DNA of 42,867 nt from Candidatus Methanomethylophilaceae archaeon (GTDB lineage Archaea; Thermoplasmatota; Thermoplasmata; Methanomassiliicoccales; Methanomethylophilaceae). Of this stretch, positions 33,586 to 38,703 are shown piece by piece (the first letter of the stretch is position 1; the number at the start of each line of letters is the position of its first letter). Under the pieces are notes generated by a model. The model was not told the origin of the DNA. It did no database searches and was given only the letters and a program-made list of their open reading frames with translations. The stretch covers positions 1 to 42,867 of the forward strand of contig CALUOK010000018.1 of NCBI GenBank assembly GCA_944322255.1, read 5' to 3'. The position numbers and the translations under genes are program-made.

Positions 33586-34260
33586 TCAGTTTGGTACGGT
33601 GGATGTGCCTGAAGATCCGTAAATATCTCCAGTCACAGGCCCATCGAAGTTGAAAATGATGCCAGGCGTGCCTGCCATCAATTCTGCACTGCAGTTCGTC
33701 ACTCCTTCGAGACTGAATGTCAGAGAGTAGGTCGTGTTTCCATGGACTCCCTTGAACGAGAACTCTCCTGTCTGTGTCCATGTTGTCCCCTCTGGACCGA
33801 AAGCGATGAGTCCCGCACTCCCACCATCGGGAAGTGCAACGCCTCCTGCCACCAGAGGAGTGGTGCTAGCTTCGGAATCCACAAGGTATATCGATATACC
33901 TGCCGGCTGTCCCATTCCAAGGTTGATGGCGGGAGCCCACTGAGCGTACAGTGTAACGTATCCGTGCGCAGGGTACGATATAGTGCTTCCGGGAGCATAC
34001 GAGGTTCCTGAGCCGTCAGCACTTGTGTTCCATCCGACAAACGCGTAACCACTGTTCGTGAACATGTTGTTCGACACCGAAGTGGAAGTCAGCCTGAATG
34101 TCGGGTTTCCCTCATAGGTCACACCATCATTGCCGTCGTAGACGACGCCGACGTAACCCTTGTTCTCGTCATCGCCACCACCCATCCCGACCACCACCGC
34201 AGCGACTGCGATGACGATCACGACGACGGCGACGACCCCGATCAGAGTCTTGCTGTTCAT
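33586..34260 (-). CDS. Membrane-anchored surface protein with one InlB B-repeat
   Basis: 224 residues. The N-terminus (about 4-26) is a single hydrophobic helix, which acts as a signal anchor and places the rest outside. Residues about 68-112 form an InlB B-repeat (Listeria-Bacteroides/Flg_new), with GYAFVGWNTSADGSGTSY and a final VTLYAQW. The remainder is rich in T, S, G and V, as in exposed beta proteins. Such proteins are abundant in gut Methanomassiliicoccales and often thought to be adhesins. The GC content is lower than in housekeeping neighbours. A TATA box at 34279-34290 gives a nearly leaderless message. The related 895-residue surface gene lies nearby. Confidence 0.82.
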   Translation of the reverse strand: MNSKTLIGVVAVVVIVIAVAAVVVGMGGGDDENKGYVGVVYDGNDGVTYEGNPTFRLTSTSVSNNMFTNSGYAFVGWNTSADGSGTSYAPGSTISYPAHGYVTLYAQWAPAINLGMGQPAGISIYLVDSEASTTPLVAGGVALPDGGSAGLIAFGPEGTTWTQTGEFSFKGVHGNTTYSLTFSLEGVTNCSAELMAGTPGIIFNFDGPVTGDIYGSSGTSTVPN

Positions 34261-34278
34261 GAGATTGAAACCGCGTTT

Positions 34279-34290
34279 AGATAATAAATG
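34279..34290 (-). promoter_or_regulatory. TATA box of the InlB-repeat gene
   Basis: Minus strand CATTTATTATCT, about 20-30 bases before the ATG at 34260. Confidence 0.5.
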
Positions 34291-34309
34291 AAGATGGGCC
34301 GACCCCGCA

Positions 34310-34606
34310 TCAGGATGGGCCGTTCAGTACGTCCCGTATCCCCGCAAGACGCTCCGCGACGTCCCTGCCCTTCTCCGTGAGGTGCACGAACACAGCCTTC
34401 TGGTGGATGACCTCCAGCTCGATCAGCCCGCAGGCCTCCAGCTTCGCCATCTTCTCCGAACCGCGCGGGCATCCGTTCACGTACCTGTACAGATCGGTCT
34501 TCCTGCACCCGTCGTGGTCCAGGAGGTAGAGGAGGAACGTGATCATGTTGCGCTCCTCCAGCACCAGCATGCTATCGTGCGACTTGTCCTGCCGAACTGC
34601 CACCAT
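34310..34606 (-). CDS. Small winged-helix transcriptional regulator
   Basis: 98 residues. One winged-helix domain: helix 1 VLEERNMITFLLYLLDHDG, helices 2-3 RKTDLYRYVNGCPRGSEKMAKLEACGLIEL, and the wing VIHQKAVFVHLTEKGRDVAERL. It is close to the protein at 35147-35440 and more distant from those at 34668-35117 and 38305-38703, so these are paralogs. No ligand domain is present. It lies 49 bases upstream of the InlB-repeat gene on the same strand and is divergent from another paralog, sharing one TATA region (34627-34639). It is a candidate regulator of the adjoining surface genes. Confidence 0.82.
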   Translation of the reverse strand: MVAVRQDKSHDSMLVLEERNMITFLLYLLDHDGCRKTDLYRYVNGCPRGSEKMAKLEACGLIELEVIHQKAVFVHLTEKGRDVAERLAGIRDVLNGPS

Positions 34607-34626
34607 GATTCATTCATTAGTTTATT

Positions 34627-34639
34627 GTGTATAAAACAC
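34627..34639. promoter_or_regulatory. Shared symmetric promoter of two divergent regulator genes
   Basis: GTGTATAAAACAC: a TATA box on either strand flanked by GTGT and ACAC arms. It lies about 21-33 bases before ATG 34606 (minus) and 29-41 bases before TTG 34668 (plus), so one box could serve both genes, and its symmetry could be read by a dimeric regulator. Confidence 0.5.
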
Positions 34640-34667
34640 TACTTTTTTCTTTACATGACTCAGTCTA

Positions 34668-35117
34668 TTGAACAAAAGTTCCATTCCATCCACCGTCCTC
34701 CACACACCCGTGTCCGGAGAGGAGGGACCGGGACTCCACTTCGAGGGGTTCCCGGACGAACGGAAGGTCAACATCCTGCAGTTGAAGCACACCATAGACA
34801 TCCTGCTCTACATCAACAGCAGGGGCTCCGTCAGGGAGGTGGACGTGCGCAACGACGTCACCGGCAACTTCGATATGTCCAGCAAGCGCCTGAACATGCT
34901 GAGGGAGATGGGGCTGGTAGACTGCATGTACCCGGACTCCAACGTCAAGGGCCACAAGGCCCGGAAGTGGTGGCTGACCGGAAAGGGCAGGACCATGGCC
35001 AAGATGCTGATAGTCATGGACCGCAGCATCTCCGGGGAACTCGACCTCGAGGACCCGGTGATCGAGGAGTTCTGCGACGAGGCCCTCATGCCCGACGAGA
35101 CCTCCGAGAAGAGGTAA
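34668..35117 (+). CDS. Winged-helix transcriptional regulator
   Basis: 149 residues from TTG 34668, the first possible start after the TATA box; GTG 34710 is an alternative that removes 14 residues of low-quality N-terminus. The winged helix covers about residues 37-115 (LKHTIDILLYINSRG, REVDVRNDVTGNFDMSSKRL, MLREMGLVDC, KWWLTGKGRTMAKML). A short acidic tail follows. It is a distant paralog of the three other small regulators in this region, and convergent with the one at 35147-35440. Start uncertain. Confidence 0.75.
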   Translation: MNKSSIPSTVLHTPVSGEEGPGLHFEGFPDERKVNILQLKHTIDILLYINSRGSVREVDVRNDVTGNFDMSSKRLNMLREMGLVDCMYPDSNVKGHKARKWWLTGKGRTMAKMLIVMDRSISGELDLEDPVIEEFCDEALMPDETSEKR

Positions 35118-35146
35118 GGGAGGGGCTGATGCCCCTGTTTCATGTT

Positions 35147-35440
35147 TCAGGTGTCCGTCCCGGCCATCACGGCCTGCATCTGCATGAGGAGGTCGACGAC
35201 CTTCCGGCCCCTGTCCGTCAGACTTATGCTGGTGAACCTGCCGTGGATGCTCCCGATTTCGATCAGACCGTTGGACTCCAGGAGGTTCAGCTTCTCGGGG
35301 AAGCGCGGAGTGCGCGACAGGTCCCTGTATATCTCGGACTTCATGCATCCCTCGTGGTCCCTGATGTAGAAAAGCACCGATATCATGTGGCGCTCCTCCA
35401 GCACGCGTATGTCGGGACGGCCGTCGGCGGGGTTCGTCAT
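35147..35440 (-). CDS. Small winged-helix regulator coupled to the surface-protein gene
   Basis: 97 residues from ATG 35440, which overlaps the stop of the 895-residue surface-protein gene as ATGA; GGAAGAG precedes it. The winged-helix core (VLEERHMISVLFYIRDHEG, KSEIYRDLSRTPRFPEKLNL, ESNGLIEIGSIHGRFTSISL, DRGRKVVDLL) is very like that at 34310-34606. Longer in-frame readings to 35506 run into the surface-protein gene and are not supported. Translational coupling to the surface protein points to control of that gene or autoregulation. Confidence 0.82.
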   Translation of the reverse strand: MTNPADGRPDIRVLEERHMISVLFYIRDHEGCMKSEIYRDLSRTPRFPEKLNLLESNGLIEIGSIHGRFTSISLTDRGRKVVDLLMQMQAVMAGTDT

Positions 35441-38124
35441 CTCTTCCTGTACTCCATTATCAGGAACACCGCCATCAGCGCGGCGACTACCGCTGCCGCG
35501 GCGCATGCCACGATCGTGGTTGTGTCGTCATCCTGCTGGGGCTGAGTAGGGATGAACGGCGGGAGGTCGTCGTCATCGTCGACCGGGACGCTCGGGACCG
35601 CGGACTCGACGAAGGTTACGACCACCCTGACGGCACCTGTGACTCCGCCGATCGTCACGGTACCGGAGGTAGTGCCGCTGACTACCAGCTCAGAAGCCGT
35701 GCCACAAGTGACTGTACCGATTTCGTATCCGCTTGCAGACGAGAAGGAGAAAGTGAATGACCCTCCATCAGTGACCGTCTTGGGAACATTGGACACGGTT
35801 CCATTTCCTCCGGAGACCTGGACAGTGACATCATAGGTCTTCTCGGTGTACGTCTCATCGTCGAACTCTGCGTTCTCGTAGGTCTGGTTGGCCACCTCGC
35901 TGGGTTCGACTTTGTTGCCCTCGAGATCCTGGTATGAGATATCAGCGCCGTTCTGTTTGAAATCCTTCCATGTTACGTTGGATGGGGTTCCGTCCTCCTG
36001 GGGCTTGACGATGATCTTTGTGCCTTCGCTCTGAGATCCGGTGACGGTGATGTCGTCTCCGGAGACAATCATTTCCCCGGTCCAGGAACCAGCGATGGAC
36101 AACGATCCGGCAGTGATAGTCGTGAGCACCACAGCTTCAAAATAATCAAGAGCCAAGGAATTTCCATCGGGCCCTAGGATTGTCCCCGAATATCCTGAAC
36201 CAGCGGAGAACTGGAGAACATCTCCGAGATCCATGTTGATTGATCCGCCAGAGAGGCCTCCTCCGTAGATGAGTCCCGTACCCTTGAAATCAAGAGTTTC
36301 TTCGATGAGAATCTCGTTGGTATCAGCGATGATGAACATCGGATAAGTCGTCTTGCTGACATCCACATCACAGTCCTTCAGAGTTATGACAGACGCCTTC
36401 TCGGAACGCATGTCGATGGCGCTCTGGCCCGCCTGTGTAGTCATCACGGCAGTGATGTTGCATCCCTCGAACACGATGTTTCCGCTTGCCTCGCTAGCAT
36501 TAGGGGCATCCTTATTGATGACAATGGTGCTGAAGCTGTTGGAGGCAGGATTCTGTTGTGTGTTCGTCCCGATAAGTTCGCAATTCTTGAAGTTGGCTTT
36601 GGTCACCAGAGAGTGTGTCTGGAATGCACACCACCCTGTGGCTGTCGAATCAGTGACATTGAGTGTCAAACCTGTGTTGTCTCCCCCAATATTGATTGCA
36701 TAGGAACCTGCGGACACATACCCTTCGTTAATGTTCAGGGTAAGATTTGACGTGTAATGGACTGTGATGCCTCTCGTGTAATTGACCACGGTCGGACCCA
36801 CAACTCTGATATCGTTGAACGTCACAGTAGATCCAGAAGCGATTGCATAATTCGTATCGTTTCCAGAGATGGTGAAAACTCTGGCGTTTGCTTCATTGTT
36901 CGTCGACGTGACCGAATGTCCGTTTCCATCGATGGTTGTGCTGGATGAGACGAAAAACGGACTGTATTCCGAGGTCGTGATGTCTTCTGTCAGTTCGATT
37001 GCTCCACCTTTGGTCAGAGCACGCTTCAGAGTGTCGGCACTGTTGGCAAGCGAACTTCCGTTGAATGTTATCAACGACGTTGAACTGTCATTGTATCCGA
37101 CAGTCACATCGGAAACGTCATGGTTCTGCCACGAGACGCTTATCGGATAGCTGTTTCCATCAGCGATGGCGATTATCGGTGTCGCCCCTGCGGCATTGGA
37201 TGTTGTCGTTACGGTCGTGTCTCTGTCGATGGTGACGGAAACAGCAGCATTCTTTGCCGCGTCGCAGTAAGCGTTGTTGATGTTGATGGTCGCAGCGGCA
37301 CCGCCGGATCCGTTGTGGTTGATCTCGTTGCTGACGTCGTACACGCCAGATATGATTGTGGAGTCAGTGATGCTCACTGCTCCCGCCTTGATTTCGACGG
37401 CGGTGTTCTGATCCGCCGTGATCTTGCATTTGGCGATGGTCGCGTCGGTGTTGGATCCCAGATAGATTGGAATCGCACTGCCGGTGGACGTGAACATGGC
37501 GTTTGATATCGCCACATCCTTCACACCCTGGTTCCCCAGCCAGACGCCGGTACCGGTACCGTCGTTGAGGAATACCCCTCCGGTTATGGTGAGTTTCGAG
37601 TCGAGGACACTCCCGATGGGACTGTACAGGATTGTGCAGTAGTCAGAATAGAATGTTCCCGACTCTATCGTCAGGTTCCCGCCGTTGGTGTTCTCACCGT
37701 AAAGACGGAACATCGATGAGCCGGTGTTCTTGATTGCTCCGGTACCTTCTGAGCTCGAATCTTTTACGGTTATCGTGTTTGTGCTACCCAGGCTGGACAT
37801 CTGCACGAATGAGTGGTTCTGGGCATTGATTACATGACCGTTCAGATCGATCGTCAGACTATTCGTAGGTGTGATCGCTCCTGTCAGGATGTAATCGTTC
37901 TGCAACGTGATTGTGCCATCGACTGCGAGATCCGTGAATCCGTTGGCATCGATCTCGGTAGCACCCGCATCCACTGTAATGCTGTCCCCGAGGCTCTCGC
38001 CGTCGACTGGACAAGCTACCACCGCACATACGGCAATCAATGCGATGGCCGATGCTGCAGCCAGGAGTTTGCTTCTCTCCCTTCCTATGGTGCCGAATCC
38101 GGCACCGTATCCGTTCGTTTTCAT
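35437..38124 (-). CDS. Large surface protein with beta-helix repeats, signal peptide and C-terminal anchor
   Basis: 895 residues. A signal peptide covers about residues 18-43 (LLAAASAIALIAVCAVVACP). Residues about 60-650 are T/S/N/G/I-rich repeats of the parallel beta-helix kind (TIDLNGHVINAQN, LTIESGTFYSD, LTITGGVFLNDG, TTIDGNGHSVTSTNNE). A beta domain near 740-840 (DVTVQVSGGNGTVSNVP) is followed by an acidic, proline-rich stalk (VPVDDDDDLPPFIP) and a C-terminal membrane helix ending in EYRKR. This is the layout of a cell-surface adhesin or polysaccharide-binding protein. Base composition is clearly less GC-rich than the neighbours, a sign of transfer or relaxed selection. Good Shine-Dalgarno GGAGGTATGAGAG before ATG. 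The wHTH gene follows with an ATGA overlap. Confidence 0.85.
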   Translation of the reverse strand: MKTNGYGAGFGTIGRERSKLLAAASAIALIAVCAVVACPVDGESLGDSITVDAGATEIDANGFTDLAVDGTITLQNDYILTGAITPTNSLTIDLNGHVINAQNHSFVQMSSLGSTNTITVKDSSSEGTGAIKNTGSSMFRLYGENTNGGNLTIESGTFYSDYCTILYSPIGSVLDSKLTITGGVFLNDGTGTGVWLGNQGVKDVAISNAMFTSTGSAIPIYLGSNTDATIAKCKITADQNTAVEIKAGAVSITDSTIISGVYDVSNEINHNGSGGAAATININNAYCDAAKNAAVSVTIDRDTTVTTTSNAAGATPIIAIADGNSYPISVSWQNHDVSDVTVGYNDSSTSLITFNGSSLANSADTLKRALTKGGAIELTEDITTSEYSPFFVSSSTTIDGNGHSVTSTNNEANARVFTISGNDTNYAIASGSTVTFNDIRVVGPTVVNYTRGITVHYTSNLTLNINEGYVSAGSYAINIGGDNTGLTLNVTDSTATGWCAFQTHSLVTKANFKNCELIGTNTQQNPASNSFSTIVINKDAPNASEASGNIVFEGCNITAVMTTQAGQSAIDMRSEKASVITLKDCDVDVSKTTYPMFIIADTNEILIEETLDFKGTGLIYGGGLSGGSINMDLGDVLQFSAGSGYSGTILGPDGNSLALDYFEAVVLTTITAGSLSIAGSWTGEMIVSGDDITVTGSQSEGTKIIVKPQEDGTPSNVTWKDFKQNGADISYQDLEGNKVEPSEVANQTYENAEFDDETYTEKTYDVTVQVSGGNGTVSNVPKTVTDGGSFTFSFSSASGYEIGTVTCGTASELVVSGTTSGTVTIGGVTGAVRVVVTFVESAVPSVPVDDDDDLPPFIPTQPQQDDDTTTIVACAAAAVVAALMAVFLIMEYRKR

Positions 38125-38304
38125 CTCTCATACCTCCGGAGCCGGTCGGTTCCGGTCACATCCGCCTCCGGTCCATCGTCTCAACGATGCCTTCGGCTGT
38201 GTGACAGGGTATAGCTATAATTAATATAATTCACTATCTGAAAGATAACATAGATTACCGAATATGAGATAAGTGACATTCGTTCAAAGGCATTACCATA
38301 CGGC
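38125..38304. promoter_or_regulatory. Divergent promoter region between surface protein and regulator
   Basis: An AT-rich core (38207-38230, with TATAGCTATAATTAATATAATT) provides TATA boxes for the minus-strand surface gene. Palindrome TATCT-GAA-AGATA at 38235-38247 is an operator candidate. The surface-gene leader is about 80 bases and can form hairpins (CATCGT-TGAG-ACGATG at about 38177-38192 and GGAGCCGGT/CCGGTTCC-type arms at about 38138-38155). For the plus-strand regulator, GAATATGAGAT near 38260-38270 is a weak TATA box. Confidence 0.5.
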
Positions 38305-38703
38305 GTGTCCCGCAACGACAGCAGCAAAGGCCGCGCAGACGAGGAACCGGTCCTGGGGTTCCTGTACCAGAAGCACATAATCACCGCCATGTTCTACCTC
38401 TACGACCACGGGGAGGCGAAGGAGTCCGAGGTGGCCTCGTTCATAGGCAAGGGCTACAACATAGCGGTCCGCTGTCTGGAGAGGCTGAGGTCGGAGGGCC
38501 TCGCCGTGTCGTGGCAGGACGGGACCGACGTCAGGACCTACAAGTCCAGGCACTGGAAGCTTACGCCCGGCGGCAAGAGGGCCACGGAGTTCCTGAAGGG
38601 CCTCCACGCGTTCATGGGGGAGATCTCCTTCGAGGAGGGTCTGGAGGACGACGGCGACAACGCCGGCGAGGCACCGGCCGTCTCCTACGGCAGGAGGCCC
38701 TGA
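38305..38703 (+). CDS. Winged-helix transcriptional regulator
   Basis: 132 residues from GTG 38305, with no Shine-Dalgarno sequence. The winged helix covers about residues 16-95 (LYQKHIITAMFYLYDHGEA, ESEVASFIGKGYNIAVRCL, RLRSEGLAVSW, HWKLTPGGKRATEFL), followed by an acidic tail. It is the fourth member of the regulator family in this region and is transcribed divergently from the 895-residue surface protein, the classical position of a dedicated regulator. The start is uncertain. Confidence 0.78.
   Translation: MSRNDSSKGRADEEPVLGFLYQKHIITAMFYLYDHGEAKESEVASFIGKGYNIAVRCLERLRSEGLAVSWQDGTDVRTYKSRHWKLTPGGKRATEFLKGLHAFMGEISFEEGLEDDGDNAGEAPAVSYGRRP

Follow-up and report, generated by a model that had tools for sequence, protein, structure and literature searches.

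Winged-helix regulators adjoining surface-protein genes in a Methanomethylophilaceae archaeon, and poly-G tracts at their sister loci

The window, that is, the whole stretch of 42,867 nucleotides analysed here, contains four small winged-helix genes from a family that adjoins genes for predicted surface proteins far more often than control genes do. At other loci of the same genome and of related species, genes of these types carry long poly-G tracts. The reading that we prefer, and to which we give a probability of about 0.6, is that of a genus-specific system in which regulators are linked in cis to surface genes, layered on poly-G phase variation at sister loci.

Four regulator genes and two surface genes

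The assembly to which the window belongs, as contig 18, is 1.88 Mb long and 96% complete, and we infer it to be a metagenome-assembled genome of the Methanomethylophilaceae genus UBA71, or Ca. Methanoprimaticola (taxid 2911791); the two genus names are equated, with UBA71 as the GTDB name, in PMC8727293. The features of the locus are listed in Table 1, where surface location is a prediction from membrane segments and composition.

Table 1. Features of the locus, with positions in the window
Feature	Position	Strand	Evidence or remark
224-aa surface protein with a membrane segment at the N-terminus and a single InlB-type (Listeria-Bacteroides) repeat	33586..34260	-	Flg_new E=4.1e-8 and TIGR02543, both over cut-off
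Regulator 1, 98-aa winged-helix protein	34310..34606	-	family profile E=1.5e-31; ATG 34606 start
Regulator 2, winged-helix protein with acidic C-terminal extension	34668..35117	+	family profile E=2.1e-11
Regulator 3, 97-aa winged-helix protein	35147..35440	-	ATG 35440 start; family profile E=1.9e-33; AlphaFold2 pLDDT 88
ATGA stop/start overlap, adhesin/regulator 3	35437..35440	-	direct reading
895-aa surface protein (adhesin), membrane segments at N- and C-terminus, IVACAAAAxVAA tail, without poly-G tract	35437..38124	-	
Adhesin C-terminal tail-anchor region	35452..35565	-	tail search E=1.1e-16, 82% identity
Divergent promoter region, adhesin/regulator 4	38125..38304	.	leader inverted repeat 38136-38171 beside adhesin ribosome-binding site
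Regulator 4, 132-aa winged-helix protein, divergent from adhesin	38305..38703	+	GTG 38305 start; family profile E=3.1e-7

A preliminary description of this DNA had recognized the four regulator genes as relatives. All four open reading frames are present at the positions given there, and the kinship is borne out by pairwise identity and by a family profile. The profile was built with regulators 1 and 3 and without regulators 2 and 4, and it matches all four. Regulators 1 and 3 are 41% identical, while regulators 2 and 4 are more distant and form one group (98/90). The layout proposed at that stage holds as well: the ATGA at which the adhesin stop overlaps the start of regulator 3 is exact, regulator 4 and the 895-aa gene are divergent and 180 bp apart, and regulator 1 is codirectional with the InlB-repeat gene and 49 nt upstream of it. 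Regulator 2 is divergent from regulator 1 and tail-to-tail with regulator 3, with no surface gene adjoining directly. Its start is uncertain, the only candidates being the non-ATG codons TTG 34668 and GTG 34710, of which a codon-usage gene model favours GTG 34710.

The regulators had also been said to lack ligand domains, which agrees with what we found. No Pfam or NCBIfam model exceeds its cut-off for any of the four (the HxlR score for regulator 1 is 15.2 bits against a cut-off of 20.8), and the AlphaFold2 model of regulator 3, made with 56 relatives, is a confident single winged-helix domain. This model resembles MepR/MarR and HxlR/YtcD structures (Foldseek 3.9e-4 to 4e-3), and the family profile has a distant sequence match to MarR-family and small archaeal winged-helix chains; a single-sequence search of the PDB with regulator 3 found no relative. 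Since the scores lie below the Pfam and NCBIfam cut-offs, we describe the regulators as proteins that may work like MarR and HxlR repressors and do not call them members of those families. The fold of the domain is alike in MarR/MepR and HxlR/YtcD repressors, whereas here the curated cut-offs are not reached, no ligand-binding part is known and the genes are associated with surface genes in the genome.

The suggestion that palindromes at 34627 and 38235 serve as operators found no support. Inverted repeats with 5-nt arms number one in the region 34607-34709, where 0.7 would be expected. In 38125-38304 there are five against 1.6 expected (11 of 300 shuffles), and the longest of these is the leader hairpin at 38136-38171, not the palindrome at 38235. 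We also rejected a AGCGANANGCT element as a candidate in the window, where it has six matches with at most one mismatch against 7.5 expected, none of them at the adhesin promoter.

Spread of the regulator family and its neighbours

In a profile search the family was found in all 31 genomes of the genus, in 3 to 22 copies each, with about 20 paralogous loci in the genome that holds the window. Outside the genus, with regulator 3 alone as query, five of 29 genomes have a match, with at most two each. The locus had been thought to represent a recurrent, undescribed unit in gut archaea. Recurrence is confirmed, and we found no description of the unit in the open-access literature, but its generality among gut archaea is not supported, since it belongs essentially to one genus.

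The immediate neighbour is a surface gene for 13 of 21 family gene calls in the window's own genome, two of these calls being halves of one broken copy, and for 39 of 68 when relatives are included; the relatives' share (26 of 47) comes from loci picked by best family score and is not a genome-wide fraction. Genes were called with a purpose-written codon-usage model, and to count as a surface protein a product had to be 200 aa or longer, to have no more than three membrane segments, one of them terminal, and to consist of Ser/Thr/Asn/Gly/Asp/Val/Ala to a fraction of 0.64 or more. In control sets, which are arbitrary 20-kb pieces of the same genome and of genome G014 and not whole genomes, 18 of 215 genes (8%) lie beside a surface gene (odds ratio 14.7, p=3e-16 against the family), as do 7 of 60 size-matched small soluble genes (12%; p=5e-8). 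The regulators thus do not lie mostly away from surface genes, an outcome that had been named beforehand as one that would tell against a control module. About 40% of family members do not adjoin a surface gene, and some subfamilies keep housekeeping neighbours across species (a symporter/ABC operon, adk); G014 and G027 also have divergent pairs of family members at their adk loci (L073, L097). The notion of a dedicated control module for host-contact proteins is partly supported: adjacency agrees with it, but contact with a host, and an action of all four regulators on these two surface genes, find no support.

How a regulator is placed depends on its clade. Some follow tail-anchored adhesins, either overlapping at ATGA or starting +3 to +5 nt downstream. 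Others lie 108-179 nt downstream of giant proteins with RLMRS-like tails, and others again are upstream of giant MNTKG proteins, divergent or codirectional. Adjacency to surface genes in several separate clades and orientations favours a cis-control system. The first arrangement is that of the window adhesin, whose tail, IVACAAAAVVAALMAVFLIMEYRKR, is common to 15 proteins of its genome; a family member is directly downstream on the same strand in 11 of these 15 genes. The nearest relative of regulator 3 (L106) is likewise coupled to a surface gene through ATGA. Beside one intact adhesin-regulator pair there is a decaying, frameshifted extra copy of the regulator (L063 8685-8962, contig C1 of the same genome).

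Poly-G tracts at sister loci

All 11 long homopolymers in the 184 kb that were inspected first are G/C runs of 9-13 nt at adhesin 5' ends. The genome has 18 tracts of at least nine G in all. The 15 tail-bearing genes account for 11 of them, at their 5' ends, where 0.03 would be expected (p=9e-27); the remainder comprises three in DNA methyltransferase genes, one in the promoter of an ABC-ATPase gene and three elsewhere. Tract and regulator occur together in 9 of the 15. The concentration of tracts at these genes, like the downstream regulators of the same genes, favours the cis-linked, phase-variable reading. The window adhesin has the regulator and lacks the tract, and none of the window's genes has one, so that the signs of phase variation belong to the relatives of the locus and not to the locus itself. 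The alternative surface states once proposed for this locus find indirect support in the poly-G tracts of its sister loci.

Leader tracts lie 41-52 nt upstream of the ATG and are followed by a C/U-rich stretch running into CCUCC, which in the predicted leader folding pairs with the GGAGG ribosome-binding site. In two leaders this site reads GAGGG and the opposite arm CCCUC, and the stem is kept. When the leaders were folded at varied tract length, the site was closed at about 12 G or fewer, with a jump near 13-14 in most. Opening rises by 0.34 on average in these leaders and by 0.06 in spacer shuffles (0 of 40 sets), and an independent set of five leaders from G020, which had no part in building the hypothesis, gave 0.38 against 0.04. 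Length-gated opening is predicted in 18 leaders from three species, with a putative transcription start. With up to about 12 G, the tract would pair only with an upstream C/U stretch, leaving GGAGG closed in the CCUCC hairpin, while from about 13-14 G it would invade the CCUCC arm and open the ribosome-binding site. At their assembled lengths of 10-13 nt, most leader tracts would count as OFF. In the tract pairing, two-sided covariation was not found with RNAalifold, as is to be expected since a G run cannot covary. One adhesin shows the arrangement in mirror image, with a run of C13 beside the ribosome-binding site, 16 nt upstream of the ATG (L062 8636-8648, contig C1 of the window's genome), and folding this leader at varied lengths gave no clear length switch.

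The tracts could instead act on transcription, through promoter spacing or operator occupancy and not via leader RNA, as poly-G/C tracts in bacterial promoters often do. The sequence AGCGANANGCTGC occurs five times in the genome, each time immediately before a tract at a promoter and nowhere else; its role may be that of an operator or of a leader element, and as an operator of the regulators it would suit a transcriptional effect. However, an AT-rich, TATA-like peak 40-47 nt before the tract suggests a transcription start about 16 nt upstream of the tract, which would put the start before it, and in shuffles the ribosome-binding site loses its predicted length-gated opening. We regard transcriptional action as possible but less likely.

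Tracts are also found inside coding sequences. In two assembled adhesin genes a tract in the signal-peptide region puts the gene out of frame (L068 7824 and 10106), and in four other species (G030, G007, G013, G018) tracts lie within the first codons of family regulator genes. Some tract-bearing regulators are clearly in frame (L084, L085, L094; L205 is in frame from a start beside the tract), and others are out of frame, with the start-initiated reading frame running into the tract (L109, L195, L196). The fourth adhesin of the cluster on contig C8 of the window's genome (L068 11900-12869) has an in-frame TAG directly after the signal peptide. The genome has a PylS gene, as expected for the order, so this codon could be read as pyrrolysine; alternatively, the gene is a dead copy.

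The placement of tracts within regulator genes bears on another explanation, in which ordinary small winged-helix repressors of assorted targets multiplied in this lineage, and the adhesin-linked members hitchhiked on operon duplication without any dedicated part in surface control. The regulators coupled to tail adhesins in the window's genome do form one clade (100/99) that also takes in a copy from G014, the pattern expected of operon duplication, and the fixed housekeeping neighbours of other family members fit such an expansion too. Hitchhiking does not, however, predict poly-G tracts that strike the regulator gene in four species, and it sits poorly with the fact that unrelated surface genes are partners in separate clades, in differing orientations and spacings. 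We consider it unlikely.

Tract lengths, read from assemblies with one genome per species, differ between orthologs. In one pair, with flanks about 95-98% identical, G11 in G030 leaves the frame MRDQDRF...TQEGGGAVRS... open into the regulator, while G13 in G018 leads to an early stop. Two further orthologous tracts measure 12 against 10, so the difference is 2 nt at all three comparable sites. Tracts placed where length would alter expression or frame are thus present at the sister loci and absent from the window genes, and lengths that vary between close relatives, with ON and OFF frames, are seen between species. Phase variation is favoured by the tracts within regulator genes of four other species, by the G11 and G13 orthologs and by the methyltransferase tracts. 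That the length differences and frameshifts are errors of assembly or homopolymer sequencing in genes that do not switch is improbable: the genomes compared are all assemblies and long G runs are error-prone, yet tracts recur at the same class of site in many independent assemblies, their ortholog differences are uniform, and errors alter length but cannot create an 11-nt tract 43-47 nt upstream of so many surface genes.

A possible mechanism and its relation to known systems

In the mechanism that we propose, the small MarR/HxlR-like proteins without ligand domains most likely control the adjoining surface genes in cis. Regulator 3 would be translated after the adhesin through the ATGA overlap, so its output should track translation of the adhesin, and it is probably a feedback repressor of its own operon, which encodes the 895-aa protein. 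For regulator 4 the probable target is the divergent promoter that it shares with the adhesin, and for regulator 1 it is the InlB-repeat gene. In sister operons, coupled regulators with near-identical recognition regions may act on each other's operons. A tract located in the leader or first codons of the adhesin, or in the first codons of the regulator, would, on changing length, toggle the adhesin-plus-regulator unit or the regulator alone. Of this scheme, the order of the genes and its recurrence, the positions of the tracts, their length differences and frames in close species and the predicted change in folding come from the analysis, while we infer DNA binding, target promoters, direction of regulation, switching in populations and the RNA switch. 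Much more tentatively, we speculate that the genus UBA71 has a phase-variable surface proteome, in which each adhesin has a poly-G leader switch and the coupled repressors act on sister operons so that a cell displays few adhesins at once; the switch would have moved into the regulator in sister species, and the window copy, without a tract, would be locked.

Phase variation of surface proteins by way of repeats is a hallmark of bacteria adapted to a host, and in bacteria phase-variable surface genes are usually accompanied by DNA methyltransferases. If these methanogens likewise switch adhesins and dedicated regulators, attachment to partners and immune recognition would differ among cells of one genotype, and this surface variation would be masked in consensus metagenome assemblies. 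The coupled regulator and the predicted leader switch both offer specific, directly testable predictions. Simple sequence repeats are a classic means of phase variation for bacterial surface genes, regulators and methyltransferases (PMC11868660). The loci described here resemble such contingency loci in having homopolymers in the 5' part of surface, regulator and methyltransferase genes and in- and out-of-frame states in close relatives; they differ in belonging to a methanogenic archaeon and in the dedicated winged-helix gene coupled to the surface gene, and their switching is putative. In Helicobacter pylori, a variable G-repeat in the tlpB leader sets translation via the trans-acting small RNA RepG (PMC8295292). 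There as here, a length-variable leader poly-G pairs, or is predicted to pair, with a C/U-rich partner to set translation, but in our case the predicted partner lies within the leader itself, where it overlaps the arm opposite the ribosome-binding site. Adhesin-like and Listeria-Bacteroides-repeat proteins of Methanomassiliicoccales, the same broad class of surface gene in the same order, are counted or listed in PMC7883539, PMC5011839 and PMC8727293, in the accessible parts of which they are given without a link to a regulator family or to poly-G. A large survey of homopolymers that included 18 archaea stressed mainly short poly-A/T tracts (PMC2831843). We found no description of phase variation in Methanomassiliicoccales in the open-access literature, which alone does not prove novelty.

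Some tracts lie at genes of other kinds. The three methyltransferase tracts are 10-12 nt long, in the gene or at its start (L140 6209-6220; L141 4603-4613 and 7593-7602; contigs C1 and C2 of the window's genome). Two of the enzymes are of the N6/N4 type and one of the C5 type, two of the three genes are interrupted by the tract, and these tracts suggest phase-variable methylation. A G10-12 tract 30-37 nt upstream of an ABC-transporter ATPase gene is conserved in five species, namely that of the window (L143 955-965), G014, G027, G020 and G008 (the other loci being L160, L173, L218 and L241), and measures 12 against 10 between G020 and G008. On contig C5 of G020 (186-191 kb, L235-L238), four tandem surface genes have a G11-12 tract close to the 3' end, immediately ahead of the membrane anchor, which is in frame in only one of the four; these tracts could switch between an anchored and a released protein. 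A different small HTH-like gene on contig C4 of G018 has C12 and G10 tracts at its 3' end (L197 3613-3649). Finally, in G033, from another genus of the family, a giant surface protein has a G11 tract immediately behind its signal peptide (L189 4005-4015), which suggests that the phenomenon may extend beyond the genus.
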